In this document: piece by piece, positions 25,578-35,229 of the stretch
How positions within the stretch are numbered: position 1 is the stretch's first letter
Layout of the letters: every line of letters begins with the position of its first letter
Assembly: GCF_018771565.1 (NCBI RefSeq)
Contig: NZ_CP076326.1
Span: 1,984,001-2,048,000, forward strand
Direction: 5' to 3'
From: Thermoflexus hugenholtzii
Lineage (GTDB): Bacteria > Chloroflexota > Anaerolineae > Thermoflexales > Thermoflexaceae
DNA length: 64,000 nt
Translations under genes and position numbers: made by a program
Notes under the pieces: model-generated
The model's input: only the letters and a program-made list of their open reading frames with translations
The model's database searches: none
Told to the model about the DNA's origin: nothing

Positions 25578-25748
25578 ACCGCGCCCCGCGGACGCAGGGT
25601 TTCCCTGCTACCCCCTCGCCCCGGCCCCGCTTATGCTGAGGATGGAAGCAGCCGCCCCGAGCCCGGATTCCCTAAGGGCCCCCACAGGCCGATGGGGCCG
25701 GGCCGATAGGGTCCGTGGGGAAACCTGCGGGCCTGCCGGATTCGCAAA

Positions 25749-25780
25749 GGGGACGGTGCCTTCGGGCCCGTCCCCTTTTT
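25749..25780 (+). terminator. Strong intrinsic terminator in the leader of the respiratory operon
   Basis: 8-bp stem GGGGACGG/CCGTCCCC plus an inner GCC-TTCG-GGC, followed by five T. It lies only 30 bp before the start of the iron-sulfur gene, and no plus-strand gene precedes it, so it would act on the leader of the operon itself. Leader attenuation or a riboswitch is a reasonable reading. Confidence 0.75.
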
Positions 25781-27933: not shown

Positions 27934-30900
27934 ATGACGAAGGCGATGCCTCGACCGACGGAGATCCGGGAGGAGCTCCCGGCGGAGAAAACCGAAGGAA
28001 CCGGTCTGACCCGGCGGGATTTCTTGAAGACGGCGGCCCTGGTGGGGAGCACCGCCCTCTTCGCCCACGCGGCCCGCACCCTGGCGAGCTTCCACCCGGA
28101 GGCCGAAGGGGAATACCCGCTGGGCCGGCCGGAGAACATGATCTTCACCGTCTGCCAGCAATGCAACACCCAGTGCGGGATCAAAGTGAAGCTACTGGAC
28201 GGCGTGGCGGCCAAGATCGACGGCAACCCCTACTCGCCCTGGGCGCTCTACCCCCATCTCCCTTATAAGACGCCGATCTCCCAGGCTGCTGCCATCGATG
28301 GGGGGCTCTGCCCCAAGGGCCAGGCGGGTATCCAGACCGCCTACGACCCGTATCGCCTCCGGGTGGTCCTGAAGCGCAAGCCCGGCACCAAACGGGGCGA
28401 GAACCAGTGGATCACCATCCCCTTCGAGCAGGCCATCCGGGAGATCGTCGAAGGGGGCGACCTCTTCGGCGAGGGCCCTGTGCCGGGCCTGAAGGAGCTG
28501 TGGGCCCTGCGGGACCCCAAAGTCATGAAGGCGATGGGCGATTTCGTGAAGAAGATCTGGGGGGAGAAGGATCCGGAGAAGAAGAAGGCCCTGGTGGAGG
28601 AATTCAAGAAGCAGTTCGCGGATCATCTGCACACCCTGATCGATCCGGACCACCCGGACCTGGGGCCGAAGAACAATCAGATCGCCATCATCTGGGGGCG
28701 GCTCAAGGGCGGACGCTCGGATTTCATCCACCGGTTCTTCGGCGATGGCCTGGGGACCGTCAACCGCCACGGCCACACCACCGTCTGCCAGGGCTCCCTC
28801 TACTTCGGCTGCAAAGCGATGTCTGAACAGTTTGTGGACGGGAAGTTCTCCGGCGGGGCCAAGTTCTACTGGCAGGCGGACCTGGGCAACAGCGAGTTCG
28901 TCATCTTCGTGGGCGCCAGCCCCTTTGAGGGGAACTACGGCCCGCCGCTGCGGGTGACCAAGATCACCGAGGGGCTGGTCTCGGGCCGGCTGAAGTATGC
29001 GGTGATCGATCCCCGTTTCTCCAAGACGGCGGCCAAGGCCTGGAAGTGGATCCCCAACAAGCCGGGGACCGAGGGCGCCATCGCCATGGGGATGATCCGC
29101 TGGATCATCGAGAACCAGCGCTACGACGAGAAATACCTGCGCAACGCCAACCGGGCCGCCGCCAAAGCCGCCGGGGAGCCCACCTGGACCAACGCGGTCT
29201 GGCTGGTGAAGATCGGCGAGGACGGCACCCCCGGCCCCTTCCTGCGGGCCTCCGAGATCGGCCTCACCACCAAGCAGGAAGTGGAGAAGGAGGGGAAGAA
29301 GGTGACCGTCTATGTGACCCCCGACGGCAAGCAGTTCGCCTACGACCTCCTGGTGACCATGGTGGAGGGCAAGCCGGTCGCCTTCGACCCCAACGACGCC
29401 GAGACCCCGGTGGTCGGGGACCTCTTCGTGGAGGCCACCCTCACCGCCCTGGACGGCAAGGCCATCCGGGTGAAGAGCGGGATGCAGATCCTGAAGGAGT
29501 CGGCGGAGAAGATGACCATTGAGGAATACGCCGCCGAGGCGGGGATCCGCCCTCAGGATATCGTGGAGCTGGCCCGGGAGTTCACCGCCCACGGCAAGCG
29601 GGCCGCCGCCGACGTCCACCGCGGCGTCTCCCAGCACACCAACGGCTTCTACAACGTGGTGGCCTGGTTCACCCTGAACCTGCTCATCGGCAACTACGAC
29701 TGGAAGGGCGGGATGATCAAGGCCACCACCTACGATTACACCGGGGCCAAGGCCAAGAAGCCGTTTAACCTGAGCGCCATGAACCCCGGCAAGCTCTCCC
29801 CGTTCGGGATCAGCATCATCCGTCACGAAGTCAAGTGGCAGGACACCACGCTCTACGACGGGAAATATCCGGCGAAGCGGAACTGGTATCCGCTGTCGTC
29901 GGACATCTACCAGGAGCTGATCCCCTCCATGGGGGACGCCTATCCGTATCCCATCAAGATCCTCTTCATCTATATGGGCTCGCCGGTCTATGCGCTGCCC
30001 GCCGGCCACACCAACATCGAGATCCTGAAGGATCCGAAGAAGATCCCCCTGATCATCGCCTGCGACATCGTGGTCGGCGAGACCTCGATGTATGCCGATT
30101 ACATCTTCCCGGATCTCACCTACCTGGAGCGCTGGGAGTTCGCCGGCTCCCATCCCTCGGTGGCCTGGAAGGTCCAGCCGGTGCGGCAGCCGGCCATCCC
30201 GCCGCTCACGGAGACGGTGAAGGTCTTCGGCCAGGAGATGCCGCTCTCCCTGGAGGCCATGCTCCTGGGCCTGGCGGAGGCCCTGGGCCTGCCGAACTTC
30301 GGCCCCAACGGCCTGGGCGAGGGCATCCCCCTCACCCACCCGGATCACCTCTACCTGCGCATGGTGGCCAACCTGGCCTACGGGGAGAAGGAGGACGGCT
30401 CCGACGCGGTGCCCGATGCCGACGATGAGGAGGTCCGGATCTTCCTGGAGGCCCGGCGGCACCTCCCGAAGAGCGTCTTCGATCCGGAGCGCTGGAAGGA
30501 GACCGTGGGGGAGGACCTCTGGCGCAAGGTGATCTACGTGCTCAACCGGGGCGGCCGCTTCCAGGACTTCGAGAAGGCCTATGAGGGCGATCAGGTGAAG
30601 AACAAATACGGCCAGCTGATCAACCTCTACCAGGAGAAGACGGCGACCACCAAGAGCGCGATGACCGGCAAGCCGCTCATCGGCTACGCCACCTACATCC
30701 CCGCGCCCACCGATGTGCTGGGCAACCGGCTGGAGGACGAGAAGGAGGGCTACGAGTTCCACCTGATCACCTACCGGGAGATCTTCCACACCAAGAGCCG
30801 CACCATCTCCAACTACTGGCTACTGGCCCTGGCCCCCGAGAACTACGTCCTGATGAATGCCCGGGACGCCGCCCGGCTGGGCCTGAAGGACGGGGATTGG

Positions 30901-31227
30901 GTGCGGATCGTCTCGCCCACCAACCCGGAGGGGGTTTGGGACCTGGGCAACGGCCAGAAGAAGGCGATGGTCGGCAAGGTCAAGGTCGTCCAGGGGATCC
31001 GCCCCGGGGTGATCGCCTTCAGCCTGGGCCACGGCCACTGGGCGTATGGGGCCTCGGATGTGGTGATCGACGGGGTGGTGGTGAAGGGCGATCCGCGCCG
31101 GGCGACCGGCATCCACGCCAACGCCGCCATGCGGGTGGACCCCTACCTGAAGAACACCTGTCTGGTGGATCCGGTGGGCGGCTCGGCGGTGTTCTACGAC
31201 AGCCGGGTGAAGGTGGAGAAAATCTGA
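27934..31227 (+). CDS. Tat-exported molybdopterin oxidoreductase, TtrA/ArrA/SrdA-like catalytic subunit
   Basis: 1097 residues. Tat signal [12 protein letters not shown] (about 26-37), then a [4Fe-4S] site CQQCNTQC ... GLCPKGQ (about 72-130). Further on, [18 protein letters not shown] holds a Cys in the usual Mo-ligand position. Late motifs include [20 protein letters not shown] and HGHWAYG. The size is well above PsrA/PhsA (about 760) and close to tetrathionate, selenate/sulfur or arsenate reductases, with a lysine-rich insertion near residues 185-235. The acceptor (tetrathionate, sulfur, arsenate or selenate) cannot be decided by eye. It acts outside the membrane with the two preceding subunits. 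RBS GATAGGAGG. Confidence 0.88.
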
Positions 31228-31731: not shown

Positions 31732-31847
31732 CCGTGGGGAACTCCCATCGGACCCAGCGCGTCGTGGGAACGAACGGATTCGGCACGCACCCGACCCCCA
31801 AAGGCCCAGGCGAGCCCCATGGGCCACGATGTGCAAACCCTTTAACT

Positions 31848-31874
31848 TGACAGATCCGACAGAACCCATATAAT
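31848..31874 (+). promoter_or_regulatory. Promoter of the aromatic amino acid operon
   Basis: Perfect TTGACA (31848-31853) and TATAAT (31869-31874) with a short 15-bp spacer. The predicted transcript would begin near 31881, about 30 bp before the leader peptide ORF. Confidence 0.8.
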
Positions 31875-31910
31875 GGGAAACCAAACCGGCAGGAGTGGGG
31901 TTTCCCGGAC

Positions 31911-32009
31911 ATGATGGCACGGCGTCTCGCGAGCGTCCTCCGCGGCTACGGGTGGTATTACTTTTACTTTGCCGCGCCTGTGGCGGGGCCGCTCGCGCGT
32001 GCCACGTGA
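31911..32009 (+). CDS. Leader peptide rich in aromatic residues, 32 codons
   Basis: Reads MMARRLASVLRG, then YGWYYFYF (codons 13-20: Tyr, Gly, Trp, Tyr, Tyr, Phe, Tyr, Phe), then a short tail ending at TGA 32007-32009. Seven aromatic codons in eight is extreme for such GC-rich DNA and recalls the phe and trp leader peptides of enterobacteria. It is the first ORF after a near-consensus promoter and lies 90 bp before the chorismate mutase/prephenate dehydratase gene. Its ribosome site is weak: GGGG ten bases upstream, or AGGAG fifteen bases upstream. It would sense charged Phe, Tyr and Trp tRNAs by ribosome stalling. Confidence 0.82.
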   Translation: MMARRLASVLRGYGWYYFYFAAPVAGPLARAT

Positions 32010-32085
32010 TGGTTCCACCCCATCCCAACGATCTCACCCATCGGCGCGGAGCGGCTCCCCGGAGCCCCCGCGCCGATGGCGTTTT
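31928..32085 (+). promoter_or_regulatory. Transcription attenuator with segments 1:2, 2:3 and 3:4
   Basis: Segment 1 CGCGAGCG (31928-31935) is perfectly complementary to segment 2 CGCTCGCG (31990-31997). Segment 2 (31988-31998) is also complementary to segment 3 (32044-32055): seven pairs, one bulged G, four pairs. Segment 3 forms the 5' arm of a terminator with segment 4 (32068-32079). A ribosome stalled on the aromatic codons (31947-31970) would block segment 1 and favour 2:3, giving read-through. A ribosome at the stop codon would cover segment 2 and allow the terminator. Confidence 0.8.
32038..32085 (+). terminator. Terminator arm of the attenuator
   Basis: 12-bp perfect stem (32038-32049 with 32068-32079), an inner GGCTC/GAGCC stem, then CG and four T (32082-32085). 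It ends 14 bp before the pheA start codon. Confidence 0.82.
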
Positions 32086-32099
32086 CATGGGGAGGAGAC

Positions 32100-33356
32100 A
32101 TGATCTGCGGCATCCGCGGCGCGATCACCGCCCAGGCCAACACCCCCGAGGCCATCGCCTCGGCCACCCGAACGCTGCTCCAGGCCATCGCCCGGGCGAA
32201 CCACCTCACCCCCGAGGAGATCGTCGCCGCCTGGTTCACCACCACCCCCGATCTCAACGCCGCCTTCCCCGCCGCCGTCGCCCGGGAGATGGGATGGACC
32301 CACGTCCCCATGCTCTGCGCCCAGGAGATCCCCGTCCCCGATGGATTGCCCCGTTGCATCCGCGTCCTGCTGCTGGTCCAGCCCCGCCGGCCCCTCCGGC
32401 CCGTCCCGGTTTACCTGGGCGAGGCCCGCCGGCTCCGACCGGACCTGTTTAACGGGGAGGGAGATCCCGCCCCGGAGCCGGATCCCCCGCCCCCTCCCCC
32501 GACCCGTCCGCGGGTGGCCTTCCAGGGGGAGCCAGGAGCCTATTCCCACGAGGCCGCTGAGCGCTTCTTCGGGGGCGAGCTGGAGCTGCTCCCCTGCGCC
32601 ACCTTCGCCGAGGTCGCCCAGGCCGTGGAGGCCGGCCGGGCCGACTTCGGGATCCTGCCCGTGGAGAACTCCACCGCAGGCTCCATCAACGCCGTCTACG
32701 ACCTCCTCCTGGAGCGGGACCTCCGGATCTGGGGGGAGGTGATCCTGCGGGTGCGGCACTGCCTCCTCGCCCCTCCGGGGACCTCCCTCTCGGACATCCG
32801 GGCGGTGCGCTCCCATCCCCAGGCCCTGGAGCAGTGTGCCCGCTTCATCGCCCGCCACGGCTGGGAGGCCATCGCCGCCCCCGACACCGCCGGCAGCGCC
32901 CGCATGCTGGCCGAGCGCCCGGAGCCCGGGGTCGCCGCCATCGCCAGCCGCCTGGCCGCCGAACGCTACGGCCTGGCGATCCTGGCCGAAGGCATCGAGG
33001 ACGACCCCGAGAACGCCACCCGCTTCTTCATCGTCAGCACCCATGAGCCCCCCCGCGCCGCCCGCAACAAGACCTCCATCGTCTTCAGCACCCGCCACGT
33101 GCCGGGGGCCCTCCACGCCTGCCTGGGGGAGTTCGCCGCCCGCGGCATTAACCTCACCAAGCTCGAGTCCCGCCCCCGCCGCGGCCGTCCCTGGGAATAC
33201 GTCTTCTACCTGGACTTCGAGGGCCACTGGCAGGATCCGGCGTGTCGCGAGGCCCTGCTGGGCCTGCTCCAGCGGGCCTCCTTCCTGAAACTGCTGGGCT
33301 CTTATCCGGCCGCCGAGGGAACCCTCTCAAGCCACGAAGAAGGAGGAGAGCGATGA
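32100..33356 (+). CDS. pheA: AroH-type chorismate mutase fused to prephenate dehydratase
   Basis: 418 residues, cytoplasmic; converts chorismate to prephenate and then to phenylpyruvate for phenylalanine. Residues 1-122 are an AroH-class mutase: GIRGAIT at the N-terminus, [20 protein letters not shown] and [13 protein letters not shown], matching the catalytic Arg, Cys, Glu and Arg of the Bacillus enzyme. After a proline-rich linker, residues about 138-325 are the dehydratase ([41 protein letters not shown]). The C-terminal ACT domain ([36 protein letters not shown]) would bind phenylalanine for feedback control. Known bifunctional P-proteins use an AroQ mutase instead, so this fusion is unusual. 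ATG 32100 follows GGGGAGG. The stop overlaps the next start (ATGA). Confidence 0.93.
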
Positions 33357-34378
33357 TCGTGGAATGCGCGTCCGATATGGACCCCCGCGCCATCCAGCGA
33401 CTGGTGGAGCACCTGCAGGCCAGGGGCAAGCCCGTCTACCGGATTCACGGGCCCCAGCCCGTGCTGGTTTGCCCGGATGATCACGACCTGGATCCCCAGG
33501 AGCTCCAGACCTGGCCCGGCGTCCGACGGGTGATCCCGGTCCGTCATGCCTTCCAGCTGGCCGCCCGGGATTACCGGCCGGAGGGCACCCAAATCCGGGT
33601 GGGCGAGGTGCTCATCGGCGGGGAGGAGCCGGTGTTGATCGCCGGCCCGTGCGCCGTGGAATCCCGCGCCCAGCTCCTGGAGACCGCTTACGCCGTCCGG
33701 GAAGCGGGCGCCCATATGCTGCGCGCAGGGGCCTTCAAGCCCCGCACCTCCCCTTACTCGTTCCAGGGACTGGGCTGGGAGGGGCTGGAGCTGCTGGCCG
33801 AAGTCCGCGCCGAGACCGGCCTCCCCGTGGTGACCGAAGTGATGGCCCCCGAGGAGATCCCCCTGGTGGCCGAGGTCGCCGACGTCCTGCAGATCGGCGC
33901 CCGCAACATGCAGAACTTCAGCCTGCTCAAGGCGGCCGGCCGCCAGCCCAAGCCGGTCCTCCTCAAGCGCGGGATGAGCGCCACCATCGAGGAATGGCTG
34001 CTGGCGGCGGAATACATCATGGCCTACGGGAACTTCCAGGTGATCCTGTGCGAGCGGGGGATCCGCACCTTCGAGCGGATGACCCGCAACACCCTGGACC
34101 TCAACGCCGTGCCGGTGGTCAAACGCCTGAGCCACCTGCCGGTGCTGGTGGATCCCAGCCACGGCACAGGGGACGCGGCGTATGTGATCCCCATGGCCCG
34201 GGCCGCCATCGCCGCCGGAGCGGACGGCCTGATCACCGAGGTCCATATCCGCCCGCAGGAGGCCTGGTCGGACGGCCGCCAGTCCCTCACCCCGGAGGCC
34301 TTCGCCCGCATGGTCCGCGAGGTCCGCGCCGTGGCTCGGGCCCTGCGGGAACTGGAGGGCGATTCCCATCGCGCGTAA
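33353..34378 (+). CDS. aroF: 3-deoxy-7-phosphoheptulonate (DAHP) synthase, type I-beta
   Basis: 341 residues. Condenses phosphoenolpyruvate with erythrose 4-phosphate, the first step of the shikimate pathway. An N-terminal ferredoxin-like regulatory domain (1-75, starting [21 protein letters not shown]) is followed by the KDOPS-like TIM barrel: [47 protein letters not shown] and [10 protein letters not shown]. The layout is that of the Thermotoga enzyme, in which the N-terminal domain gives Tyr/Phe feedback. The start overlaps the pheA stop by four bases and is preceded by AAGGAGGAG. Part of the attenuated pheA-aroF-tyrA operon. Confidence 0.95.
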
Positions 34379-34389
34379 GGAGTCAACGG

Positions 34390-35229
34390 ATGGCGCCGTT
34401 CCGCTGGGGGATCATTGGGTTGGGATTGATCGGCGGCTCCATCGCCCATCGGCTCGCCCGACAGGGGCTCCCGGTGCTGGGAGCGGATCAGGATCCCCGG
34501 ACCCGGGAGCAGGCCCGGGCCTCCGGGATCTTCGAGGACGTCCTGGACCCGCCGGCCCTGGCCGCCGCCGCGGAGGGCGTGATCCTGGCCACGCCGGTGG
34601 GCGCGATCGAGGAGCTGCTGCGGACGCTGCCGTGGCGGCCGGGACAGGTGGTGCTGGACACCGGGAGCACCAAGCGACGGGTGGTAGCGGCGATGGGGAA
34701 GCTGCCGGACGGCGTGGGCGCCGTCGGCGGACATCCCATGGCCGGCCGGGAGACCTCGGGCTTCGAGGCGGCGGACCCGGATCTCTTCGTCGGGCGGCCG
34801 TTCCTGCTGGTCCCCACTTCCCGCACCACCCCCGAAGCCGCCGCGCGGGCGGAGGAGCTGGCGCGCCTCCTGGGCGCCCGGCCGCTGTGGATGGAGGCGG
34901 AGACCCACGATCGCCAGGTGGCCTGGATCAGCCACCTCCCCTACGTGACGGCCATGGCCCTTGTCGCTGCCGTGGAAGCCGCTGGGGATCCCGCCCTCTG
35001 GGAGATCGCTGCCTCCGGCTTTCGGGACGCCACCCGGGTGGCGGCCAGCGACCCCCGCATGATGGGGGACGTCATCCGCAGCAACGCCGATGAGGTCGTC
35101 GCCGCCCTGGAGACCCTCCTCCGGATCCTGGAGGCTTGGCGCGCGGCCCTGAAGGCCTCCCCGCCCTCGCTCCCTCCGGAATGGCCCCGCCTGGCCGCGC
35201 GCCGCCGCGGATGGTCGGGGAGTGCCTGA
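34390..35229 (+). CDS. tyrA: Prephenate dehydrogenase
   Basis: 279 residues, cytoplasmic; oxidative decarboxylation of prephenate to 4-hydroxyphenylpyruvate for tyrosine. N-terminal NAD-binding GIIGLGLIGGSIAHRLA, then LDTGSTKRRV, GGHPMAGRETSGFEAA (catalytic His region), WMEAETHDRQVAWISHLPY and GFRDATRVAASDPRM. No C-terminal ACT domain, so feedback is probably exerted elsewhere. The ATG follows AAGGAG, 11 bp after aroF. Last gene of the operon; it converges on the cobalt/nickel transporter genes 7 bp further on. Confidence 0.95.
   Translation: MAPFRWGIIGLGLIGGSIAHRLARQGLPVLGADQDPRTREQARASGIFEDVLDPPALAAAAEGVILATPVGAIEELLRTLPWRPGQVVLDTGSTKRRVVAAMGKLPDGVGAVGGHPMAGRETSGFEAADPDLFVGRPFLLVPTSRTTPEAAARAEELARLLGARPLWMEAETHDRQVAWISHLPYVTAMALVAAVEAAGDPALWEIAASGFRDATRVAASDPRMMGDVIRSNADEVVAALETLLRILEAWRAALKASPPSLPPEWPRLAARRRGWSGSA

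Follow-up and report, generated by a model that had tools for sequence, protein, structure and literature searches.

How is the synthesis of phenylalanine and tyrosine controlled in Thermoflexus hugenholtzii? The window, by which we mean the whole 64-kb stretch of DNA analysed here, is part of a complete Thermoflexus genome (Chloroflexota) and holds a promoter, a short open reading frame (ORF) and a hairpin in the interval that separates a cytochrome c gene from pheA, the chorismate mutase-prephenate dehydratase gene. A sequence-only reading had taken this arrangement for a classical attenuator with the architecture of the enterobacterial trp and phe systems. The comparison reported here bears this out: conservation of the frame, stop, codon run, antiterminator and terminator extends far beyond the genus, and the helices covary. 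We conclude from sequence that the pheA leader is very probably a ribosome-mediated transcription attenuator for Phe/Tyr synthesis.

Results

The leader is followed by three adjacent genes on the same (+) strand. They encode a fusion of AroH-type chorismate mutase, prephenate dehydratase and ACT (pheA, 32100..33356; Pfam CM_1, PDT and ACT), a DAHP synthase (aroF, 33353..34378, start ATG at 33353; DAHP_synth_1) and a prephenate dehydrogenase (tyrA, 34390..35229, start ATG at 34390; PDH_N and PDH_C), and these Pfam matches confirm the pheA-aroF-tyrA operon named earlier. Elsewhere in the window, a molybdenum/tungsten cofactor riboswitch (RF01055, 55.8 bits) lies at 25643-25769 (+); the region downstream of it has a molybdopterin oxidoreductase at 27934-31227.

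The promoter, TTGACA-16-TATAAT at 31847..31874 (+), had been called near-consensus and is in fact perfect, with 12/12 consensus matches (0.1 expected in shuffles); both hexamers are identically placed in all Thermoflexus relatives read. The leader ORF (31911..32009, +; ATG at 31911, TGA at 32007-32009) encodes the 32-residue peptide MMARRLASVLRGYGWYYFYFAAPVAGPLARAT; its start aligns with the ATG of the relatives and its length varies by whole codons. Within it, at 31947..31970 (+), stands the regulatory codon run Tyr-Gly-Trp-Tyr-Tyr-Phe-Tyr-Phe. This is the sole 8-codon stretch with seven aromatic codons in the 64 kb, and even at a threshold of at least six of eight there is no other place on either strand and none in 30 simulated windows, which puts the 32-codon ORF and its aromatic run, present where they had been reported, beyond chance. 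The poor ribosome site suspected earlier is also real: AGGAG stands 15 nt before the leader ATG, and in several relatives AGAGG or GAGG precedes it by 8-10 nt.

Three mutually exclusive complementarities had been proposed, and all of them are exact at the following positions. Segment 1 (CGCGAGCG, 31928..31935, +), the 5' arm of helix 1:2, pairs exactly with 31990-31997 (CGCUCGCG), and an outer extension pairs GGCACG just upstream of segment 1 with CGUGCC after segment 2. Segment 2 (31988..31998, +) lies within the leader ORF and pairs with either segment 1 or segment 3 (32044..32055, +), the latter forming an 11-bp antiterminator with one bulge. Segment 3 overlaps the 5' arm of the terminator hairpin 3:4 (32038..32079, +), a GC stem in which 32038-32049 pairs with 32068-32079 at 12/12 bp; it is followed by CGUUUUC at 32080-32086. 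Calculated helix energies at 37 C are -47.8 (1:2), -35.8 (3:4) and -27.3 kcal/mol (2:3), with the same order at 70 C; this order is as expected and would agree with termination as the default. The folded leader region exceeds shuffles in stability by 3.9 sd, and each helix alone has modest support in the single sequence (p about 0.03-0.04, base shuffling). Because the single-sequence helices were only modestly better than shuffled bases we tested conservation, and it is conservation rather than the single sequence that lends the helices decisive support.

The other Thermoflexus leaders retain the promoter, ATG, aromatic run, stop and hairpin. Pairing of 1:2 is 94% kept in the genus, compared with 20-55% in slid controls, and the inner 1:2 helix that brackets the run shows two compensatory changes (for example GCGGUA/UGCCGC versus AUGGCA/UGCCAU). 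A second DAHP synthase in one Thermoflexus is preceded by a leader of its own.

The U-tract is a point absent from the earlier reading. Most Thermoflexus species have UUUUUU, whereas the window species and its nearest relative have CGUUUU, so that the CGUUUUC of the window is the weaker tract; together with the poor leader ribosome site it counts against attenuation in the window species. A reading suggested by this weakness is that the leader there acts partly or mainly on pheA translation, with ACCCCAU (32016-32023) pairing with AUGGGGAGG (32087-32095), which covers the pheA ribosome site. The minimum-energy fold of the whole leader does contain this pairing, but the ACCCC stretch is absent in the Thermoflexus species with a strong U-tract, and we consider control at translation unlikely. 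The two genomes with a weakened U-tract are also those in which the pairing can form, fully in the window species and almost so in its closest relative.

For comparison beyond the genus, relatives' loci were retrieved by protein similarity only, and 34 of them, some near-duplicates, are on contigs that include the chorismate mutase start. An aromatic leader ORF stands upstream of the chorismate mutase gene in 33 of these 34 loci; the sole one lacking it lies directly behind another gene. Across 37 distinct loci the aromatic run is at the same place, starting 86-112 nt before the terminator stem, and the leader stop falls 21-39 nt before that stem (a GC hairpin plus U-tract). The ORF also takes in segment 2, which in most leaders precedes the stop by 12-23 nt, and the loop of 1:2 holds the codon run.

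Aligned with one another, 31 leaders from outside Thermoflexus show 87% pairing in the antiterminator (29-53% in slid versions), where 7/12 pairs have compensatory changes, and 98.8% pairing in the terminator stem, where 4/8 pairs do. Such an alignment, looking for a conserved leader peptide and covarying stems, had been put forward as a check of the attenuator, and the leader came through it. Antiterminator and terminator are mutually exclusive, as the covarying 2:3 helix shares segment 3. The protector helix 1:2 is 72% paired in the 31 leaders, which is weaker evidence; its exclusivity with 2:3 is clear in Thermoflexus and weaker in the broad set. The RNAalifold consensus shows the terminator only, as expected for mutually exclusive helices. 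Sequence and comparison thus establish the leader frame, the codon bias, the exclusive covarying helices and the gene context.

A covariance model built from the 31 leaders, without any Thermoflexus sequence, has the window leader as its sole match in the 64 kb (E 0.056) and matches every pheA leader from Thermoflexus that was tested, with E from 5.5e-6 to 0.03. It finds matches in 244/396 genomes of the class at E<=0.01 and in 43/301 of a phylum sample at E<=0.001, families outside the class included. Nearly all inspected matches precede genes for chorismate mutase, prephenate dehydratase, DAHP synthase, tyrA, aroA or an aroK-aroB fusion, and one genome has two split operons with one leader each. 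The scaffold consensus for segments 2, 3 and 4 is GGUCGCUCC, AGCGUGGAGCGACC and CCACGCU plus U-tract.

Three matches (L236, L243 and L245) looked like false positives. At two loci (L157 and L158) the gene right behind the aromatic leader resembles one for a LysE-type amino acid exporter, and chorismate mutase or DAHP synthase comes next. In roughly half of the leaders from outside Thermoflexus (L019, L022, L040, L043, L048, L066, L079 and others) a GC hairpin, CCCGCGC/GCGCGGG, ends immediately ahead of UUUUAUUUU, with which the Phe/Tyr run also starts; the hairpin resembles a site of pausing or early termination. We dropped the idea that it is, with UUUUAUUUU, a universal 5' pause site, as it occurs in about half of the relatives and is absent in Thermoflexus.

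Codon identity tracks the downstream gene in relatives of the scaffold. Tyr-only leaders precede tyrosyl-tRNA synthetases (L142, ATYAYYYARM; L231; L237; L241, YDYYGYYYAAD), a CHMHHPH run precedes a histidyl-tRNA synthetase (L240) and a YTTTTGTPAT run an aspartokinase (L143). For L142, L231 and L237 the synthetase identity is supported by TIGR00234 matches at the same places; the names for L241, L240 and L143 come from reading of the proteins. This match between codon run and downstream gene is the best indication that sensing is done by the codons themselves. It may also mean that the Chloroflexota hold one inherited attenuator scaffold whose regulatory run was exchanged in evolution (Phe/Tyr, Tyr, His, Thr), a proposal that we make tentatively and with somewhat more doubt than belief. 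Tyr leaders ahead of tyrosyl-tRNA synthetase occur only sporadically, and Thermoflexus itself has none. One further scaffold-like match (L244) has an Ile/Val run (VIIVIVI) and precedes an ABC-F type ATPase gene. In several class members (L266, L267, L277 and L257) a short ORF ending (I)YxYxSGL-stop lies ~270-290 nt before tyrosyl-tRNA synthetase; it may belong to a T-box or to some other leader.

A similar picture would result if the hydrophobic aromatic peptide encoded ahead of the antiterminator were a specific arrest peptide of the TnaC or Erm-leader style, which blocks the ribosome in response to a ligand. However, what the peptides have in common is aromatic content and position and not sequence, and Tyr, His and Thr runs that match the gene are explained by codon-specific stalling and not by a fixed arrest peptide, which makes nascent-peptide arrest very improbable.

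Which amino acids would codon-specific stalling sense? The earlier reading had the leader respond to Trp, Tyr and Phe alike. Codon totals in the 37 pheA-type leaders are 169 Phe, 119 Tyr and 20 Trp, with at most one Trp codon per leader and none in 17/37. Every Thermoflexus leader has one, whose UGG is part of a paired arm or adjoins it. The genome to which the window belongs has a T-box-like leader before trpE (L168 2985-3302, -; RF00230, 65 bits, E 5.4e-13, short of the gathering score of 93), and the trpE loci of sister species share the GGGTGGCACCACGGG motif. Because Trp is absent from 17 of the 37 leaders and trpE has this leader of its own, the Phe/Tyr part of the claim is supported and three-way sensing is not established; the codon counts support a pheA-type leader that is mainly a Phe/Tyr sensor.

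The trpE leader implies that sensing of tRNA by RNA probably exists in T. hugenholtzii, and a T-box or metabolite riboswitch before pheA could likewise be the direct sensor of uncharged tRNA or of an aromatic amino acid, which would make the short ORF incidental. Yet an Rfam search (gathering thresholds and E<=10) found nothing relevant in the pheA leader and no amino-acid leader family (Trp_leader and others). Searched for stem I, the specifier loop and the T-box antiterminator, the pheA leader has no Rfam match, unlike the trpE leader with its RF00230 hit below gathering, and 15 relatives' loci are likewise free of T-box and other Rfam matches. What is conserved is codon composition, frame and stop position, not an aptamer, and the run varies in order and, by whole codons, in length. 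Direct sensing of this kind at pheA is extremely unlikely. Equally hard to credit is a constitutive terminator or conserved structure beside an unrelated, untranslated stretch of aromatic codons, which the poor ribosome site in the window would suit, but which is at odds with a frame and stop position that have survived great divergence and with an alternative, covarying helix in competition with the terminator.

Discussion

The recurrence of an aromatic-codon leader with an RNA switch across much of the phylum indicates that ribosome stalling probably senses Phe/Tyr shortage. In the attenuator that we propose, RNA polymerase would start just after 31874 and a ribosome would translate the 32-codon leader. 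With Phe-tRNA and Tyr-tRNA charged, it would cross the aromatic run and segment 2, which would then be occupied or re-pair with segment 1 behind the ribosome; with segment 2 unavailable, segment 3 would pair with 4 and transcription would end before pheA. Under a shortage of Phe or Tyr it would be in the run that the ribosome stalled, and the stalled ribosome, because the run lies in the loop of 1:2, would block that helix and free segment 2 to pair with 3 as antiterminator, so that pheA-aroF-tyrA would be transcribed. Leader translation, stalling, termination and the starvation response are what we infer from the arrangement. Equilibrium partition functions in which the ribosome footprint enters as unpaired bases only hardly separate the stalled and released states, and a model that treats the ribosome as a barrier shows the direction expected, which is partly built into it. 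Since equilibrium models alone give no switch, co-transcriptional kinetics or a ribosome barrier is needed and is assumed here.

The mechanism is a known one; what appears to be new, and is well supported by the sequence comparison, is a very widespread and conserved Chloroflexota family. In a large group that is poorly represented in culture, Phe/Tyr synthesis would usually be controlled by leader-peptide attenuation, which in one genome would stand beside T-box-like control of Trp. About 240 genomes offer a dataset for comparing codon identity, spacing and gene target. A published prediction has T. hugenholtzii incapable of making Phe and Tyr, with most of the genes in place (PMC8129789); the conserved and apparently regulated pheA-aroF-tyrA operon suggests, contrary to that prediction, that Thermoflexus does make both. 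In Rfam and the literature searched (many subscription papers being beyond reach) we found no description of such an attenuator in Chloroflexota, in agreement with the earlier reading, which knew of none in this lineage.

The closest known systems are leader-peptide attenuators. E. coli pheL-pheA likewise places a leader peptide before a chorismate mutase-prephenate dehydratase gene, with competing antiterminator and terminator. The pheL peptide uses Phe codons only, and in the Chloroflexota leader, compared with what is generally known of pheL, segment 2 is inside the ORF and the run in the 1:2 loop. E. coli trpL uses Trp codons; its mechanism (RF00513) is alike in outline, whereas the Chloroflexota leader has no Rfam match and Thermoflexus trpE carries a T-box-like leader instead. 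The Acholeplasma uORFC-13-1 motif upstream of aroF, a uORF with Phe codons before a terminator (24 representatives), belongs to another lineage and, by its description, is a different motif (PMC8632094). In the actinobacterium Corynebacterium glutamicum, the aroR leader upstream of aroF has Phe-Tyr-Phe and responds to Phe and not to Tyr (Neshat et al. 2014, as reviewed in PMC11802643; also PMC4046766); by analogy, Tyr responsiveness of the Chloroflexota leader is not assured. As described, aroR has three aromatic codons and controls aroF (PMC11802643), in contrast to 6-12 such codons in the Chloroflexota family and the pheA-aroF-tyrA operon behind the Thermoflexus leader; the two share a leader peptide, ribosome stalling, as predicted for Chloroflexota, and control of a DAHP synthase operon.
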